This document shows, one piece after another, positions 9,062 through 62,360 of a stretch of 64,000 nt of DNA. The DNA lies in contig BPIQ01000003.1 of NCBI GenBank assembly GCA_026004195.1, positions 1 through 64,000 of the forward strand. The letters run 5' to 3'. Under the pieces are notes generated by a model, which was not told where the DNA came from, searched no databases, and was given only the letters and a program-made list of their open reading frames with translations. Each line of letters begins with the position of its first letter. Positions within the stretch are counted from its first letter, which is position 1. The position numbers and the translations under genes were made by a program. The stretch is from Candidatus Binatia bacterium (lineage in GTDB: Bacteria; Desulfobacterota; Binatia; HRBIN30; BPIQ01).

Positions 9062-9400
9062 GTCAAGGATGTACCCCACGCCCCGGACGCGACGCAGCGC
9101 GTCCCTCCGGCGCGTGCGCCCGGTACCCCGGACGCCGCACGTCCTTGCAAACGCGAGCGACACGTTCATGCCCACCCCGGACGCGACGGAGCGCCACGCT
9201 CTGTCGTGGCCGTGTTCATCCATCCCACGAACGTCCCTTGCCTGGGCGACGGTACGGCCCGCTCGCCCACGCCCCGGACGCGACGGAGGGCCACGCTCTG
9301 TCGTGGCCGTGTTCATCCATCCCACGAACGTCCCTTGCCGGGCGACGGTACGTGCCCGCTCGCCCATCGCCCCGGACGCGACGGAGCGCGGAGGATGTGA
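9062..9400. repeat. Hairpin repeat array 2 with fused elements
   Basis: Type-1 and type-2 hairpins are mixed. Twice the left arm and loop of a type-1 element run straight into a complete type-2 element, GCCACGCTCTGTCGTGGC, so the two are fused at the loop/stem junction. The two fused copies are followed by the same spacer containing ATCCATCCCACGAACGTCCC. The array fills most of the gap between the M20 gene and selD. Confidence 0.8.
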
Positions 9401-9594: not shown

Positions 9595-10638
9595 ATGGAA
9601 GACATTCGCCTCACCACACTCGTGCAGGCCGGCGGTTGAGCCCGTAAGCTCGCCGCGGAGGACCTGGTTCAGGTCCTGAAAAAACTCGGCCCACTCTCGC
9701 ACGCGTGGGTGGACCCCTCGACGGGTCCGCTCGACGACGCCGCTCTCTTGCGCCCTCCGGCAGGCCCCTCCCTCGTTTTCACGGTCGACTTCATCACGCC
9801 CGTCGTCGACGGTCCGGAAGATTTCGGTGCCATCGCGGCCGCGAACGCGCTCAGCGACGTTTACGCCATGGGCGGAGAGCCGAGGGCGGCTCTTGCCGTG
9901 TGCGGTTTTCCGCAGGACAAGCTTCCCGTCTCCATCCTCGAGCGAATCCTGCGGGGAGGACAGGAGAAAGCCGCCGAGGCCGGTTGTGCCATCGTCGGCG
10001 GACACACGATCGCGGACCCCGAGCTCAAGTACGGCCTCTGCGTTCTCGGAATCGTCGACCCCGAGAGAGCGCTCGTACACACCCGGGCCCGGGCCGGTGA
10101 CCTCCTCGTTCTCACGAAACCCCTGGGCTTCGGCGTCGCCGCGCAAGCACTGAAGGCAGGCGAGCTTCCCCCGCCCGAGGTCGCGCAGCTCACCGAGCTC
10201 ATGAAAACACTCAACAAGGACGCGAGGGACGCGGCCCTCGCAGCCGGGGCGCACGCCGCGACGGACGTGACGGGTTTCGGCCTTCTCGGCCACCTGCGGC
10301 ACCTCCTTCTCGGGGCGGGGCTCGCGGCGCGGCTCCGGGCATCGAGCGTCCCCGTGCTGGACTTCGCCCGCGATCTGGCCCGGCGCGGTCTCGTTCCCGG
10401 AGGCACGAAAGCCAACGCCCGTTACGTCGCGGCGGCGTGCCGGTGGGACGCGGGGGTGGACGAAACGCTCGGGACTCTCCTGGTCGACGCGCAAACCTCG
10501 GGCGGGCTTCTCGTCACCGTTCCGCCCGGGCGCACGGACGCCCTTCTCGAGGAACTCGAGCGTAGGGGCGTACCGGCGCGTTCCGTCGTCGGCGAGCTCT
10601 GCGAAGGAGAGCCGGGCTCGATGGACATCCGGCCGTAA
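9595..10638 (+). CDS. selD: Selenide, water dikinase; selenocysteine-containing SelD
   Basis: SelD makes selenophosphate from selenide and ATP, the selenium donor for selenocysteine and selenouridine synthesis. The reading frame starts MEDIRLTTLVQAGG, then an in-frame TGA (9637-9639) stands where SelD proteins carry the catalytic Cys/Sec, followed by ARKLAAEDLVQVLKKL. After it come the family blocks: DDAALL, FTVDFITPVVDGPEDFG, ANALSDVYAMGG, VGGHTIADPELKYGL, TDVTGFGLLGHL, and DAQTSGGLL. The total is 347 residues with Sec at 15. A stem-loop follows the TGA at the right distance. Conventional gene callers would start at 9709 and lose the catalytic end. No selA, selB or selC is visible in this window. 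Confidence 0.92.
9637..9676 (+). promoter_or_regulatory. UGA selenocysteine codon with bacterial SECIS-like hairpin
   Basis: The UGA at 9637-9639 is followed 20 bases later by GGACCTG-GTT-CAGGTCC (9660-9676), a perfect 7-bp stem with a 3-base GUU loop inside the coding sequence. Bacterial SECIS elements sit in this window downstream of the UGA and carry a G/U in the apical loop recognised by SelB. Confidence 0.8.
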
Positions 10639-20811: not shown

Positions 20812-21244
20812 GGACGGCGCCCGCCCGGACGCGACGGAGCGCGTCCCTCCGGGATCGCCCGTCGCGTTTCGCCGCATCGAAATTCGGAGGGCCACGCTCT
20901 GTCGTGGCCGTGTTCATCGGAGGGACCCGCTCTGTCGGGTCCGTGTTCGCGCTTGCCCGGAACGTCGATCCGCCCCACGTCCCCCCCCCGGACGCGACGG
21001 AGCGCGTCCCTCCGGCGGGGTCGTGTCCGCCCAGCGGTCGCCGCGCGTCGTTGCAAAGGTCATCGGACACTTCCAACCCCCCGCCCCCCGGACGCGCCGG
21101 AGCGCGTCCCGGCGGATCGCCCGTCGCGTGTTGCGCATCGAATTCGGAGGGACCACGCTCTGTCGTGGCCGTGTTCCTGCGCTTGCCCGGAACGTCGATC
21201 CGCCCCACGTCCCCCCCCGGACGCGACGGAGCGGGACACAGCGA
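20812..21244. repeat. Hairpin repeat array 3
   Basis: All three hairpin types occur: type 1 (GGACGCG-loop-CGCGTCC), type 2 (GCCACG-CTCTGT-CGTGGC) and type 3 (GACCCG-CTCTGT-CGGGTC). Two spacer segments recur, one with CGTCGATCCGCCCCACGTCC and one with a CGAATTCGGAGG-like lead-in. The right end stops inside a stem where it meets the truncated secreted-protein gene. Confidence 0.82.
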
Positions 21245-21464
21245 ACGGATAGGTGCTTCTGCCTCTTGCCAGGCTCCAGTGAGCTTCCGTGGGTTCGTTT
21301 TTCGGGGCCCTCCCCGCGTAACCTTCGATTCGGACGACGAGCGGCCCGCGAAACCGGTCGTGCGCGACTCCCTGGGCACGCGACGGGGTTCCCGACACCG
21401 CGATCGAGAGCAAGGTGAGAGTTGCAAGGGCCGTCGAGCGAACCCGGAGGGAACGGCCGAGCAT
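21236..21464 (-). pseudogene. Secreted protein gene truncated by repeat array 3
   Basis: The frame starts with a clear Sec signal peptide (MLGRSLRVRSTALATLTLL...PSRAQG). It continues into a plausible mature domain: PLVVRIEGYAGRAPKNEPTE, then HWSLARGRSTYPFAV. After this the translation is only the arginine-rich readthrough of the hairpin repeats. The gene has therefore lost its 3' end exactly where the array begins. I do not recognise the domain with certainty. The surviving piece is about 75 residues. Confidence 0.6.
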
Positions 21465-21485
21465 CGAGATCCGCGGCGTCGCGCC

Positions 21486-21794
21486 TCACTTCCCGGAGGG
21501 GAGGCGCACTTTCTCCGCCACGAGTTTTCCCTCGGCCGTCTTCGCCTCCACCGCTATCCGGTCACCCACGTGGATTTCGTCGCGGGTCGCCGCTTTTTCC
21601 CCCTTGCGGTAACGCGTCTTTTCTCCGAGGAGCACGGTGACCTTCTTCCCGGAGCTCTCCTCGACGACGATCGCATCGGCGGTGACGTCGCGTACGACTC
21701 CCAGGACCTTGTGGGTGTGCCCCTCGTGCGCGAGCACCGAGCTCGCACCGAGAAACAAGGCCAGAACCCACCGTTTCGGGGCTCTCGCTTTCAT
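21486..21794 (-). CDS. Small exported DUF5666-like protein
   Basis: This 102-residue protein has a signal peptide (MKARAPKRWVLALFLGASSVLA) followed by HEGHTHKVLGVVRDV, a His-rich start, and an OB-like beta domain: ADAIVVEESSGKKVTVLLGEKTRYRKG...VGDRIAVEAK. That beta domain is typical of DUF5666/copper-handling periplasmic small proteins. The start was placed at MKARAP, with SD-like GAAGG upstream; a longer frame adds only charged residues. The role may be metal binding. It lies downstream of a cytochrome c gene on the same strand. Confidence 0.7.
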   Translation of the reverse strand: MKARAPKRWVLALFLGASSVLAHEGHTHKVLGVVRDVTADAIVVEESSGKKVTVLLGEKTRYRKGEKAATRDEIHVGDRIAVEAKTAEGKLVAEKVRLPSGK

Positions 21795-21875
21795 GTCCTT
21801 CTCCTTTCTCGCACTCGGCCGTGTTTTCCCCACTCCGGCTTCTCGATGCCGCCCACCGTGCGCGCATCGCGCGGG

Positions 21876-22466
21876 CTAAGGCCTTTCGCCCTCGAGGAAA
21901 CGGCGGATGGCCTCTTCCTCTTCCCACTCCCGTGCGCTTTTCGGATTGAGTCGCTCCATCTCCGCGATTTCCTCCTCGGTGATGTCCGGTAAATGCCGGA
22001 TGAAGTGGACGAGCTTCCAGGTCTCCCTATCGTCGTCTTCTTCTTCCTCCTCCTCTACCCACGCCGGCATTCCAGTGAAACGGATGCCGTTCCGGATGAT
22101 GTAGTAAAGCTCGCCGTCCGTCAGCGACTGCGTCGCTTCTTTTCGCATGTCGGGTGCAGGAGGGTAGAGTGCCCGGCCGATCGCGGTTTGACCGCTTCCG
22201 TCGTTGGCGTGGCAGAGGGCGCAATGGTCCGCGAAGTGAGCACGGGCCTCCCGCAGAACGCCCTCGTCGAGCGGTACCGGGTTCGAAAGTCGCCGCGCGG
22301 CAGCCGGGATGGCGAGCAGGCGGAGGCGCCGGGCCACGAACGTTTCGAGCGCGGACGGCGGGCGTCTCGTGCCGAGACCTCGCTGCGCGAAATCGAAAAA
22401 CGCCCACCCGGCGAAGACCAGGAGAAAAAGGAAGACGAGCCCGAGCCACCGCAGCATCCGTCCCAT
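21876..22466 (-). CDS. Membrane-anchored monohaem cytochrome c
   Basis: This 196-residue protein has an N-terminal membrane anchor (WLGLVFLFLLVFAGWAFF), then a class I cytochrome c domain with the haem motif CALCH near residue 86 and the axial Met in FTGMPAWVEE. An acidic EEEEEEDDD loop follows the Met site. The single haem suggests electron transfer to or from a periplasmic enzyme. Its neighbour is the small DUF5666-like protein downstream; no oxidase subunit is nearby. Confidence 0.85.
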   Translation of the reverse strand: MGRMLRWLGLVFLFLLVFAGWAFFDFAQRGLGTRRPPSALETFVARRLRLLAIPAAARRLSNPVPLDEGVLREARAHFADHCALCHANDGSGQTAIGRALYPPAPDMRKEATQSLTDGELYYIIRNGIRFTGMPAWVEEEEEEDDDRETWKLVHFIRHLPDITEEEIAEMERLNPKSAREWEEEEAIRRFLEGERP

Positions 22467-22647
22467 ACGGCCTTACCCCTGAAACCTGCCCTCGTTCGGC
22501 ACTCATCTTCGCCCTCCACCTCGGGCGCGGCAAGCCCGGATGGAGGCGGCCGGGCTGGAAGCCCCTGGAACCCCGGTCCCGGTCGAGGTTTCCTGTGCCT
22601 CCTGCCCGGCTTCTCCTTCCTGCCCGGACAACGGGGGAGGAAGGGGC

Positions 22648-22674
22648 TTGACATGAAGCTGAAAATCAATTTCA
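22648..22674 (+). promoter_or_regulatory. Promoter with Fur-box-like dyad upstream of bfd
   Basis: TTGACA at 22648-22653 is a good -35 element. Seven bases further, TGAAAATCAATTTCA (22660-22674) is a 7-1-7 inverted repeat close to the Fur consensus and would cover the -10 region. The local AT-rich sequence is unusual in this GC-rich window. Iron-responsive repression of bfd fits the gene's known role. Confidence 0.6.
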
Positions 22675-22701
22675 TTTGGTTCTGCGCTCGGGATTGTTCC
22701 G

Positions 22702-22899
22702 ATGATCTTCTGTCTCTGTGCCGGAGTGACCGACGAAGCCATCGAGGCCGCCATCGAGTCGGGGGCCAGGACCGTGGCCCAGGTGAGCCGGATGACCGGA
22801 GCGGCCCGCCACTGCGGGCCCTGCCGCGAAGCGCTGGCGGAGGTGGTTCGGCGCCGGATCCGGCCGGAGCCTGCCGAGTCCCCGGTCACCGAACCCTGA
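22702..22899 (+). CDS. bfd: Bacterioferritin-associated ferredoxin (BFD-like)
   Basis: This 65-residue [2Fe-2S] protein has the four-cysteine pattern CLC near residue 4 and CGPC near residue 38, and the helix GVTDEAIEAAIESGARTVAQV. Bfd donates electrons to bacterioferritin to release stored iron. The gene lies upstream of bfr in the same direction, but hairpin array 4 has been placed between the two. A Fur-box-like site precedes it. Confidence 0.85.
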   Translation: MIFCLCAGVTDEAIEAAIESGARTVAQVSRMTGAARHCGPCREALAEVVRRRIRPEPAESPVTEP

Positions 22900-22928
22900 C
22901 GGTCTCGTCGGTTCGGCATCCGGCATTC

Positions 22929-23408
22929 CCCCGGACGCGACGGAGCGCGTCCCTCCGGATGCGGCGTTTCGCCCAACGAATCGGAGGGCCACGCTCTGTC
23001 GTGGCCGTGTTCGTCGGAGGGACCGCCCCTGTCGGGTCCGTGTTCGTGGGTGGTACGTCGTCCCCCAACCCCCGGACGCGACGGAGCGCGTCCCTCCGGA
23101 TGCGGCGTTTCGTCCAACGAATCGGAGGGCCACGCTCTGTCGTGGCCGTGTTCGTCGGAGGGACCGCCCCTGTCGGGTCCGTGTTCGCGGGTGGTACGTC
23201 GTCCCCCCAACCCCCGGACGCGACGGAGCGCGTCCCTCCGTGCGGCGTTTCGCCAACGAATCGGAGGGCCACGCTCTGTCGTGGCCGTGTTCGTCGGAGG
23301 GACCCGCTCTGTCGGGTCCCCGATCGTTCGTGACCTCGACCGTCATCGGTCACCGACGGCTCCGTCCCCCCAACCCCCGGACGCGACGGAGCGCGTCCCT
23401 GCGTCCGC
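22929..23408. repeat. Hairpin repeat array 4 (most regular)
   Basis: The order type 1, spacer, type 2, short linker CGTGTTCGTCGGAGG, type 3, spacer, type 1 is repeated three times and closed by a final type-1 hairpin. One spacer contains GCGGCGTTTCG(C/T)CCAACGAAT, the other GGTGGTACGTCGTCCCCC. Two of the type-3 copies carry GACCGC in place of GACCCG and so pair less well. The unit length is about 145 bp. It separates bfd from bfr. Confidence 0.88.
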
Positions 23409-23461
23409 CGCCTTGACGCCGCGGATCGAAGCCTTATTCTCGCCGGTCGGAGGACGAAAGG

Positions 23462-23932
23462 ATGAAAGGCGACCCCACCCTGATCGAGGCACTCAACGAA
23501 ATCCTCACCGGCGAGCTCACCGGGATCAACCAGTACTTCGCGCACGCGCGGATGTGCGAGCACTGGGGCTACAAGCGGCTCGCCGAGGTCACGCGGAAAG
23601 AGTCCCTCGAGGAAATGAAGCACGCCGACGAGCTGATCGAACGCATCCTCTACCTCGAAGGCGTGCCCAACGTGCAGCGCCTGGGAAAAGTCCAGATCGG
23701 ACAGACCGTGCCCGAACAGCTCCGGCTCGACCTCGCGCTCGAGAGCGAGGCCGTCGGCCGGCTCAACCGGACGATCGCTCTCGCACGCGAGAAGGGAGAC
23801 CACGGCACGTGCGAGCTGCTCGAGAAGATCCTCCGCTCCGAGGAGGAGCACGTCGAGTGGCTCGAAGCCCAACTGAACCTGATTCGGCAGATCGGCGAGC
23901 AGAACTACCTGGCCCAGCAGATCCGCGACTGA
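23462..23932 (+). CDS. bfr: Bacterioferritin
   Basis: This 156-residue four-helix bacterioferritin has the ferroxidase ligands in ILTGELTGINQYF, EEMKHADELIERILYLEG and LLEKILRSEEEHVEWLE, and the haem-ligand methionine in LEEMKHAD. It starts MKGDPTLIEALNE, preceded by GGACGAAAGG. The 24-subunit shell oxidises and stores iron. Its partner bfd is upstream beyond the repeat array. Confidence 0.95.
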   Translation: MKGDPTLIEALNEILTGELTGINQYFAHARMCEHWGYKRLAEVTRKESLEEMKHADELIERILYLEGVPNVQRLGKVQIGQTVPEQLRLDLALESEAVGRLNRTIALAREKGDHGTCELLEKILRSEEEHVEWLEAQLNLIRQIGEQNYLAQQIRD

Positions 23933-23951
23933 AGGTCGCGGCGGCTCGCTC

Positions 23952-25232
23952 TCACGGCTCGTCGGCGACGCGAGCGGCCTTGTAGGCGAAGCGAGGCAAC
24001 CCTCCCGGGGGAAGGAGCGTGACCTCCGCCGGGACGCCGAGTCGCTCTCGGAGCGTCCCCGCGAGCTTTTCTTCGAGGCCGGCCGGAGGCACGGCTCCCT
24101 GGAACTCCACACGCAGCTCGAGACGCCCGGTGTCCCTTTGGCGCCGGACGATCTGGTACTCTGCCGAGGGGCGCGACACCTCGGGGAATTCGTAGAGGAC
24201 GAGAGCCACGTCGACGGGAAGCACGTTCCGTCCCGCCACCTTCACGATGTCGCGAACGCGTCCCTCGTAGAAGAGCCTCCGGTGCGTCTCGCCGCAGGGG
24301 CAGGGCTTTTCGTTCCACCGCACGACGTCCTCGAGATCGTAGCGGAGAAGGAAGTTGTCTTTCTCGAGAACGCTCACGACGAGGCTTCCCCGCTCGCCGT
24401 GGCCGCAGGGGCGGCCCGTCGCGAGATCGAGAACCTCGACGACCGCCAGGTCCTCGCACACGTGCGCGCCGTCCTGCTCCTCGCACGCCGTGCCCAGGAG
24501 GGGTAGCGCCTCGAGACCCGAGCTCACGGTGAGATACTGCTGGGAGGGGTGATCGCCCGCGATCGTCAGGTTGAGATCCCTCTCCGGGTCGAGACCGAGT
24601 CGGCGTGCCGCGTCGGCGTACGTGCGGGCGACGTTACCGAAAAGCCGGTAGCCGTCCGGACGCAAGCGCCGCCAGAGCTCGACGACGTCCCGGATGTGCT
24701 CTTCTCCGACGGGAGGGCCCGACGGAATGTTGAGGCAACCGAGCTTCTCGATCCCGTGGCTGAAGTGCCAGCCGCCCGCGTTGAGGCCGAACGGGTGCGC
24801 GTTGGCCAGGCTCTTTCCGGGGCGCAATCCCCAGCGCCACCTGCCGCGGCAGGAGGCCGCGTAATCCACCTCCAGGTCCTTTTTCGTCCAGAGAATGAGC
24901 GTCGGCCGCCCCGTCGTTCCCGTCGAAGCACCGAGCCGGACGCAGCGCTCGGGTGGCGCTCCGCGGTAATCGCCGAACGGCGGAAACTCGGCTTCGCTCG
25001 CGCGAAGCTCTTCCTTGCGCGTCGTCGGAAGGCATCGGAAATCCTCGAAGGAACGCACGTCCTCCCGACTCGCGCCGTGCCGCTCGAACTTCCGGCGGAA
25101 GAACGGCACGGGCTGCGACCAGACGCGGTCGAGCTGGCGAGCGAGACGCTGCCACTGGAGGTCCAGGATCTTCTCCCGGGGGAGCGTCTGGATTTCCGGG
25201 TGGTAGAACTTGCGGTCGGAAAGGACGCTCAT
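23952..25232 (-). CDS. Phenylacetate-CoA ligase-like protein (PaaK/CapK family), copy B
   Basis: This 426-residue ANL-fold ligase of the PaaK/CapK type has the N-terminal RLARQLDRVWSQPVPFFRRKF, P-loop RLGASTGTTGRPTLI near residue 98, RYDLEDVVRWNEKPCPCGETHRRL near 300, and the hinge GRVRDIVKVAGRNVLPVDV. The cysteine-rich CPCG loop may bind zinc. Its ATG overlaps the stop of the upstream homologue (ATGA), so the two are translationally coupled and may form one heteromeric or sequential activity. The acid substrate is unknown. Confidence 0.84.
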   Translation of the reverse strand: MSVLSDRKFYHPEIQTLPREKILDLQWQRLARQLDRVWSQPVPFFRRKFERHGASREDVRSFEDFRCLPTTRKEELRASEAEFPPFGDYRGAPPERCVRLGASTGTTGRPTLILWTKKDLEVDYAASCRGRWRWGLRPGKSLANAHPFGLNAGGWHFSHGIEKLGCLNIPSGPPVGEEHIRDVVELWRRLRPDGYRLFGNVARTYADAARRLGLDPERDLNLTIAGDHPSQQYLTVSSGLEALPLLGTACEEQDGAHVCEDLAVVEVLDLATGRPCGHGERGSLVVSVLEKDNFLLRYDLEDVVRWNEKPCPCGETHRRLFYEGRVRDIVKVAGRNVLPVDVALVLYEFPEVSRPSAEYQIVRRQRDTGRLELRVEFQGAVPPAGLEEKLAGTLRERLGVPAEVTLLPPGGLPRFAYKAARVADEP

Positions 25233-26491
25233 TTTCCGCGCAGGTCCACGATCGCACCCTCGAAGCGAGGGGGCACGGCAGTCTCCGGTATCTCCGTCTC
25301 CGCTACGAGATCGACGTCCATCTGGATGAGCACGGTGGCTTTCACGCGCTCGGCGACGCGGCGCGCGAAGCCTTCCCGGTCGGCGGGCTCTTCCCGCAAG
25401 CCCAGGCGTAAACGCGCGCGGTCGTAGCGGGAGTCGGGAGCGTGGTCGACCAGGATCTGGAAGCGGGCGACCTCGGGGAACTCGGAAAGCGCCGCGTGGA
25501 CCTGCGAGGGGTGCACGAGAACCCCCTTGATCTTGCGGATGGCACCGGCTTGCCCGACGAAACGGAGCCGCGGAGCCCGATTCCCGCAGCGGCAGGCGTC
25601 GGGAAGGAGGCGAAACACGTCGCGGGGAGCGTAGCGCACGAGCGGTAGCGCCCGGCGTCCGAGCAGCGTGACGACGAGCTCCCCCACCCCGCCCGGCCCC
25701 ACCGGCTCGCCGGTCTCCGGGTCGAGAAACTCGCAGAAGAGGTCGCGCGCGTGAAGATGCATGCCGTCGTGGAAGCGGCACTCCCCCGCGAGAGGCCCGA
25801 TCTGAGCTTCGCCGCAGTGGTCGAAAAGCTCGATCCCGAACATCTCCTCGAGCTCGCGCCGGAGCTTCGGTGTGAGGGCCTCGGCCGTGGAGAAGCCGAC
25901 CCGGTACCGGAGGTCGCGCCGGGGGTCGAGCCCCATCTCGCGCGCGGTGTCGCCGAGGTGGGCGAGAAAACTCGGCGTTCCCGCGTACACCGTGGCTCCG
26001 TAGTCGCGCGCCACCTGCACCTGGAGTCGGCTCGCTCCGGTGCCGCCGTTGATGACGAGACAGCCGTACTCTTCGAAGGCGCGATGGAGGCGCAGCCCCC
26101 CGGGCATGATGTGGTACGAGAGCGTGACGTGCACGATTTCGCGGGGGCGGACTCCCATCGCCGCGATGGCTTCTTTCAGGACGGGCGTGCCTCCGCGCTC
26201 CTCGGCGAGGCGGGGGATGTAGATCGGACCCGGCGAGGTGTGAAGCGAAGCGATCTCGGAGGGCGGGACGGCGAGAAAATCACCGAAGGGCGGATTTTCC
26301 CTCTGGCGTGCGACGAGCTCCGTTTTCTCCGTGCGAGGGACGCGCTCGCGGAACTCGCCGTAGTCGCGAAGCTTCGTGGGATCGACGCGGGCGCGGTCGA
26401 AGAGATTCCGGTAGTGGGGCGAGTGCTCGTAGACCCAGACCAGAGTTTCCCGAAGCCGCTCGAACGCTTCCCCGGTCGGAGGCCAGGTCAT
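25229..26491 (-). CDS. Phenylacetate-CoA ligase-like protein (PaaK/CapK family), copy A
   Basis: This 420-residue member has LVWVYEHSPHYRNLFDRA at the start, a diverged P-loop ASLHTSPGPIYIPRL in place of the usual SSGTTG, then GFSTAEALTPKLR, FDHCGEAQIGPLAGEC, and a CRCG zinc-like loop. The hinge reads GQAGAIRKIKGVLVHPSQV. The altered P-loop suggests reduced or different nucleotide use compared with copy B, which has a normal one. It is first in the two-gene operon, and a TetR-type dyad lies 9 bp upstream of the start. Confidence 0.82.
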   Translation of the reverse strand: MTWPPTGEAFERLRETLVWVYEHSPHYRNLFDRARVDPTKLRDYGEFRERVPRTEKTELVARQRENPPFGDFLAVPPSEIASLHTSPGPIYIPRLAEERGGTPVLKEAIAAMGVRPREIVHVTLSYHIMPGGLRLHRAFEEYGCLVINGGTGASRLQVQVARDYGATVYAGTPSFLAHLGDTAREMGLDPRRDLRYRVGFSTAEALTPKLRRELEEMFGIELFDHCGEAQIGPLAGECRFHDGMHLHARDLFCEFLDPETGEPVGPGGVGELVVTLLGRRALPLVRYAPRDVFRLLPDACRCGNRAPRLRFVGQAGAIRKIKGVLVHPSQVHAALSEFPEVARFQILVDHAPDSRYDRARLRLGLREEPADREGFARRVAERVKATVLIQMDVDLVAETEIPETAVPPRFEGAIVDLRGK

Positions 26492-26499
26492 CGCCCGCG

Positions 26500-26515
26500 G
26501 TTAACAAATGTTCAC
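26500..26515. promoter_or_regulatory. TetR-type operator upstream of PaaK-like operon
   Basis: GTTAACAAATGTTCAC matches the dyad GTGAACA-nn-TGTTCAC at 54388 in all but one half-site position. It lies immediately before the first PaaK-like gene and at the edge of repeat array 5. Confidence 0.6.
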
Positions 26516-26532
26516 ATGGGAGGCAAGATACC

Positions 26533-26925
26533 GCCCGCCCCCCCCGGACGCGACGGAGCGCGTCCCTCCGGATGGGTGCGTGCGTCATGCGTGCGCCTCT
26601 GCACGGCGCTTCGAATCCACAATCGGAGGGTCACGCTCTGTCGTGGCCGTGTTCGTCGGAGGGACCCGCTCTGTCGGGTCCGTGTTCGTGGGTGACGCGT
26701 CGGCTCCCGCCCCCCTGGGACGCGACGGAGCGCGTCCGGCCGGATGGGTGCGTGCGTCATGCGCGCGCCCCTGCACGGCGCTTCGAATCCACAATCGGAG
26801 GGCCACGCTCTGTCGTGGCCGCGTTCGTCGGAGGGACCCGCTCTGTCGGGTCCCGTGTTCATCCGTGACGCGCCCGCCCCCCCCGGACGCGACGGAGCGC
26901 GTCCCTCCGGCCGGGTGCGTGGCCG
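26533..26925. repeat. Hairpin repeat array 5
   Basis: This array has two full type1-type2-type3 units and a terminal type-1 hairpin. The spacer, which includes GGTGCGTGCGTCATGCG and GGCGCTTCGAATCCACAATC, is unique to this array. One type-2 copy has GTCACG opposite CGTGGC, a substitution that keeps pairing as a G-U wobble. It fills the gap between the PaaK-like operon and the rmuC 3' end. Confidence 0.85.
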
Positions 26926-56769: not shown

Positions 56770-57225
56770 CCCCGGACGCGACGGAGCGCATCCCTCCGGG
56801 CGGACGCGTGCGCGAATGGTACCGGCGATCATCCAGGACGTCCGGCCGGCGGATCCCACCGCCCCCCCCGGACGCGACGGAGCGCGTCCCTCCGGGTGGC
56901 CGCGTGCGCGGATGGTACCGGCGATCATCCAGGACGTCCGGCCGGCGCATCCCACCGCCCCCCCGGACGCGACGGAGCGCGTCCCTCCGGGTGGCCGCGT
57001 GCGCGAATGGTACCGGCGATCATCCAGGACGTCCGGCCGGCGGATCCCACCGCCCCCGGACGCGACGGGGCCCGTGCCTCCACCATGGGCGCGGCGTTCC
57101 GAAGGTGGTATCGGAGGGCCACGCTCTGTCGTGGCCGCGTGCGCGGATGGTACCGGCGATCATCCAGGACGTCCGGCCGGCGGATCCCGCCGCCTCCCCC
57201 GGACGCGACGGAGCGCGTCCCTGCA
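56770..57225. repeat. Hairpin repeat array 6
   Basis: Five type-1 elements or derivatives and one type-2 element alternate with a 50-bp spacer that contains ATGGTACCGGCGATCATCC and GGACGTCCGGCCGGCG. The same spacer recurs, inverted, in array 7, 5 kb away. Some type-1 stems carry G-U compensations (GGACGCG opposite CGCATCC). Confidence 0.85.
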
Positions 57226-61616: not shown

Positions 61617-62360
61617 CCGTCACCCGGAGGGACGCGCTCCGTCGCGTCCGGGGACGGGGGCGTGAACGTGCCCGCCGCCTTCGCAATGCCGCGCGGCGTC
61701 CGGTGGCCCGACCCGCACGCGCCAGAGGGATGCGCTCCGTCGCGTCCGGGGGGGCGGTGGGATCCGCCGGCCGGACGTCCTGGATGATCGCCGGTACCAT
61801 CCGCGCACGCGGCCACGACAGAGCGTGGCCCTCCGATTGGGGATTTCGAAGGCGGTGTCGGGATGCACCGGTTCGCGCGGCCTTCGATCCGGAGGGACGC
61901 GCTCCGTCGCGTCCGGGAGGTTCGTGGCCGACGCGAACACCGCCACCCGGAGGGACGCGCTCTGTCGCGTCCCGGGGGGTGGCGAGGTCCACGACAACGT
62001 GTCCTTCGCGAACACGGCCACGACAGAGCGTGGCCCTCCGATAGCCGACCTTCGGAACGCCGCGCCCATGCGTGGAGGCACGGGCCCCGTCGCGTTCGCC
62101 CGGAGGGATGCGCTCCGTCGCGTCCGGGGGGGGCGCGTGGGATCCGCCGGCCGGACGTCCTGGATGATCGCCGGTACCATCCGCGAACACGGCCACGACA
62201 GAGCGTGGCCCTCCGATTGGGGATTTCGAATGCGGTGTCGGGATGCACCGGTTCGCGCGGCCTTCGATCCGGAGGGACGCGCTCTGTCGCATCCCGGGGG
62301 TTCGTGGCCGACGCGAACACCGCCACCCGGAGGGACGCGCTCCGTCGCGTCCGGGGGTGG
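61617..62360. repeat. Hairpin repeat array 7 (longest)
   Basis: At least ten hairpins of types 1 and 2 occur in mixed order, and the GTACC-containing spacer of array 6 appears twice in the opposite orientation. One type-1 element has the loop CTCTGT instead of CTCCGT, and others have wobble stems. The array lies between the 3' end of the DUF6178 gene and the interrupted metallo-beta-lactamase gene. Confidence 0.85.

Follow-up and report, generated by a model that had tools for sequence, protein, structure and literature searches.

The 64,000-nucleotide stretch of DNA analysed here (the window) contains a selD gene with an in-frame UGA codon and a hairpin shortly downstream of it, each of which is directly visible in the sequence (Table 1). 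The reading frame begins at an ATG (9595), ends at a TAA (10636-10638) and is interrupted by a single internal TGA, at codon 15. Counting this codon as one residue produced a single unbroken SelD of 347 amino acids. The SelD equivalog model TIGR00476 matched over the full length with 333.8 bits against a cut-off of 125, and both ATP-binding domains, the N-terminal AIRS (PF00586) and the C-terminal AIRS_C (PF02769), were present. A phmmer comparison with the Escherichia coli SelD structure 3u0o gave a value of 1.2e-60 and aligned residues 3-339, with U15 opposite Cys17 and K18 opposite Lys20, the catalytic Cys/Sec and Lys of the N-terminal loop. An earlier note on this DNA had placed a UGA at codon 15 within the catalytic loop and had described SelD motifs on either side of it in one frame, and both statements were borne out by these matches.

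Table 1. Positions of selD, its recoding features, the other UGA-containing genes and a nearby repeat (positions without a contig label refer to the window)
Feature	Position	Strand	Remarks
selD (selenide, water dikinase = selenophosphate synthetase)	9595..10638	+	347 aa, Sec at codon 15
In-frame UGA, read as Sec15	9637..9639	+	Alignment with 3u0o; column TGA/TGC/TGT in relatives
Bacterial SECIS hairpin (predicted)	9659..9677	+	8-bp stem AGGACCUG/CAGGUCCU, loop GUU 9667-9669
UGSC-family protein (L159, L174), second selenoprotein gene (predicted)	C2:299038-299553	minus	UGA = U of UGSC
AhpC/TSA-like peroxiredoxin (L173), third selenoprotein gene (predicted)	C3:426712-427089	minus	UGA at peroxidatic position, HW-U-PFC
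Palindromic 20-mer GGCCACGCTCTGTCGTGGCC	9192-9211, 9289-9308, 20890-26820 (7 copies), 57117-57136, 61811-62210 (minus, 3 copies)		

Standard ORF calling reported a 309-amino-acid ORF from a GTG at 9709, which is the first in-frame start if the UGA is taken as a stop, and 38 residues including Sec15 and Lys18 are thereby lost. The loss of 38 residues with the active site in usual annotation had been anticipated in the earlier note, and the corrected annotation restores them to the N terminus of SelD.

The palindromic 20-mer GGCCACGCTCTGTCGTGGCC has 7-bp arms and lies within a repeat unit of ∼90 bp. Thirteen copies were detected in the window (≤2 mismatches) and 166 exact copies in the genome, while a reversed control pattern gave 0. 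Copies are often clustered with a spacing of 100 to 200 bp, and one cluster is located 300 to 400 bp upstream of selD. This element looks like a high-copy dispersed repeat.

The UGA codon in SelD relatives

A total of 110 SelD loci were compared, of which 80 came from named genomes and 30 from class- and order-level relatives together with the window's own genome. The codon homologous to the UGA was TGA in 94 loci, TGC in 13 and TGT in 3, and nothing else was found at this position. The Sec/Cys conservation of this column is a direct observation. It bears on the view that the UGA is a genuine stop and that the protein starts at GTG 9709 without a catalytic loop, as a pseudogene or truncated paralogue. 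The 309-amino-acid ORF from standard gene calling is what such a stop would yield; against it, the homologous codon is always TGA or Cys, codons 1 to 14 and the residues following the UGA (LTTLVQAGG-U-ARKLAAEDLVQVL) are conserved in a 66%-identical relative as well as in distant ones, and Sec machinery is present in the genome. We regard a true stop as very improbable. A sequencing or assembly error hiding a real TGC or TGT would be in keeping with the draft state of the genome (6 contigs) and with the TGC found in relative G007, but TGA occurs independently in 94 of the 110 loci, including those of the same clade (L010, L011, L012 and L092), and UGA is found at known Sec sites in two other genes of this genome; the chance of such an error appears negligible.

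The closest Cys-containing SelD is that of G007 (L091, G007:C3:255989-257017), from the same order and 66% identical. The outcome that the earlier note had named as counting against its reading was a relative lacking the UGA and having a different N terminus; L091 has an unchanged N terminus and a TGC exactly at the UGA position. It also retains the whole 8-bp SECIS-like hairpin, which is unneeded there. The G007 genome would still decode Sec elsewhere, since tRNA-Sec and SelA are present together with a UGSC gene that contains a UGA. In the SelD tree, G007 fell within the Sec-containing clade (100/99), with an exact placement inside that clade that was weakly supported (97/38). Replacement of Sec by Cys with a remnant SECIS has been described in other families, and SelD is listed among the converting families, in PMC1794560. 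L091 looks like such a replacement, with the recoding hairpin left as a remnant SECIS.

Among the named genomes, the SelDs closest to this one belonged to metagenome-assembled genomes labelled Deltaproteobacteria (UBA9160 and OFTM73) and Myxococcales (DT_69), and the class-level relatives included a SelD near-identical to Candidatus Binatota records (L030 beside L100), which makes Binatia the probable class. Two SelD copies were present in G096 (C185:5418 and C23:3200, both with UGA) and in G050 (C54:82337 and C149:9491, a UGA in one copy and no stop in the other). SelD-like open frames of ∼700 to 860 codons without a UGA were detected in same-order and same-class relatives (G002, G009, G011, G013, G019, G020, G024 and others), often those without a plain SelD match. 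These long frames resemble the NCBIfam "oxidoreductase/SelD-related fusion" (TIGR04369).

Selenocysteine machinery and other UGA-containing genes

The genome is a six-contig draft of 3.63 Mb that is 98.9% complete. A tRNA-Sec was detected by Infernal (71 bits versus a 47-bit cut-off) and by ARAGORN, with anticodon TCA (UCA). SelA (496 bits) and SelB (360 bits versus a cut-off of 242) were both found, selB adjoins selA in convergent orientation, and SelB carries the C-terminal winged-helix domains SelB-wing_2 and wing_3. Winged-helix domains of characterised SelB proteins bind SECIS elements. The machinery genes, which the earlier note had put forward for a search and whose absence would have told against Sec decoding, are thus all directly observed. 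Within the order, tRNA-Sec was above the cut-off in 9 of 15 genomes and Sec decoding is patchy. MnmH is the other user of selenophosphate. A model search of the genome detected no selenouridine synthase MnmH/YbbB, and in same-order relatives only fragment-level scores were obtained; the selenocysteine route is therefore most likely the only one that SelD supplies.

The earlier note had also suggested searching for further UGA-containing genes, and at least two were found, encoding a UGSC-family protein and an AhpC/TSA-like peroxiredoxin that reads ...VFYRGHW-U-PFCMSEL.... The UGSC motif and the peroxidatic position of the AhpC/TSA protein are both known Sec sites. In the UGSC gene a 3-nt loop, GUG, lies at +19 nt from the UGA, and in the AhpC/TSA-like gene a 3-nt loop, GGU, lies at +24 nt, each capping a perfect stem of 8 bp. 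Hairpins of this kind follow TGA triplets in the window at a rate of 0.2% (Watson-Crick pairs only) to 0.7% (with G-U pairs), and the occurrence of a G-led 8-bp hairpin in all three UGA genes is hence not attributable to chance. No copy of a UGA-containing formate dehydrogenase alpha gene, sought as the expected partner selenoprotein, was detected in the genome. SelW-like (Rdx) was likewise absent from the genome, and relatives do have UGA copies of it. As few families were searched, this list of selenoproteins is a minimum.

General reassignment of UGA, or SECIS-independent readthrough, was also considered. A scan of four genome stretches (the window and the selA/selB and tRNA-Sec neighbourhoods), which is blind to UGAs near a start codon such as that of SelD, detected two TGAs with coding-like flanks, each resembling an ordinary gene boundary. 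Nothing specific favours decoding by another route, for which the nearest precedent is the SECIS-independent readthrough proposed for insect SPS1-UGA genes (PMC4561486), and with tRNA-Sec, SelA and SelB all in the genome we consider it exceedingly unlikely. The claim of the earlier note that this organism decodes UGA as Sec is supported by the machinery, the further UGA genes and the Sec/Cys column, all of them features of sequence. Overall, the gene content establishes that this lineage decodes Sec. Three selenoproteins or more are predicted, and a UGA-containing formate dehydrogenase was not among the genes found.

The hairpin downstream of the UGA and its register

The earlier note had described a 7-bp hairpin with a GUU loop 20 bases past the UGA. 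Its position and loop were correct, with GGACCTG-GTT-CAGGTCC at 9660-9676 beginning 20 nt and the loop 27 nt past the UGA, but the stem is really 8 bp because A9659 and U9677 also pair. The bSECIS model as outlined in PMC13188914 has a loop of 3 to 9 nt, a G in the first two loop positions and a spacing of 16 to 37 nt, and the upper stem is required to be 4 to 16 bp. The selD hairpin has an 8-bp upper stem, a 3-nt GU-led loop (GUU) and a 27-nt spacing, all within the ranges of the bSECISearch consensus summarised there, and no difference from that consensus was found. The window gave no Rfam match at the gathering threshold. The window has 879 TGA trinucleotides, of which 2, including that of SelD, have an 8-bp Watson-Crick stem with a G-led 3-nt loop 16 to 37 nt past the TGA; the selD hairpin thus exceeds chance expectation. 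When the peptide EDLVQVL was encoded by synonymous draws with selD's own codon usage, all 8 pairs formed in 7% of draws, and the selD hairpin alone is therefore weak evidence. Conservation of the EDLVQVL peptide and the use of GC-rich codons could in part account for it, and the strong evidence for Sec is the Sec/Cys column together with the machinery rather than the hairpin.

Between Sec and Cys genes, the raw folding energy of the sequence downstream of the codon did not differ significantly. GC content and a variable register swamp the folding-energy signal, and the comparison was therefore based on register-specific pairing and on codon choice. Sec-containing SelDs had 5.57 of 8 pairs in register, compared to 2.1 to 4.3 when the 3' arm was slid by 1 to 3 bases. 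The dipeptide QV at codons +11/+12 was present in 60 of 93 distinct Sec genes versus 1 of 16 Cys genes (Fisher P = 1.2e-5, for related sequences that are not independent), and the Val codon at +12 was pyrimidine ended in 90% of the 60 QV genes versus 54% in the rest of those genes (P = 2e-9).

With the loop placed on codon +12, where it is usually GUU or GUC, a run of 5 or more contiguous pairs was present in 51 of 94 Sec genes, and with the loop on codon +10 in 19. The clade of this selD (L010, L011, L012, L090, L092 and the Cys-bearing L091) exhibited 8 pairs at +10 versus 2 to 5 at +12, and L095 and L096, from the same order, likewise had 8 pairs at +10. Both hairpins are possible in genes such as L013 and L093 (6 and 8 pairs) and in L057 and L076 (8 and 7 pairs). 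A slide of the SECIS by two codons would be the simplest reading of these registers, and would have been made possible by the peptide DL-x-QVL, whose coding sequence can take the form of two overlapping palindromes. We tentatively suggest, with some doubt, that the SECIS within SelD may have shifted by exactly two codons, sliding via bistable intermediates and shaping the protein sequence, to leave the loop at +10 in this clade and at +12 in about half of the SelDs sampled. A limited search of the literature on bSECIS, SelD and the apical loop, in partial texts, returned no report of such a slide. In the SelD hairpins, the movement of a recoding signal within a coding sequence, and the constraint it places on the protein, can be put to the test on a small scale.

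Proposed decoding and comparison with known systems

The gene almost certainly encodes a SelD in which the UGA would be decoded as Sec15 through SelB and the hairpin, and which would serve the Sec route. From the sequences we infer that the UGA is translated as Sec, that SelB binds the selD hairpin and that the product is enzymatically active. SelD would produce selenophosphate from selenide and ATP, with selenocysteine as the catalytic-loop residue at codon 15. At the UGA, SelB, loaded with Sec-tRNA-Sec and attached to the hairpin, would insert Sec in place of termination. SelA would make Sec on tRNA-Sec from selenophosphate supplied by SelD itself, so that SelD would feed at least its own synthesis, the UGSC-family protein and the peroxiredoxin-like protein.

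A Sec-containing SelD is here a real, well-known and ordinary arrangement. Among prokaryotic selenoprotein families, SelD ranks second in how widely it occurs (PMC13188914), its Sec-containing form is among the two most common selenoproteins of bacteria (PMC1794560, PMC13188914), and every selenoproteome surveyed in 2006 contained either FdhA or SelD (PMC1794560). The E. coli SelD (3u0o) is of the same family but has Cys17 where Sec is predicted here, and its loop reads GCGCK rather than GUARK. With Sec-containing bacterial SelDs (TIGR00476), the present gene shares a full-length match, a predicted Sec at the Cys17 equivalent in the selenium-binding loop, the Lys at +3 and a bSECIS. Nothing essential differs; about half of the SelDs sampled have the SECIS loop two codons farther from the UGA than it is here.
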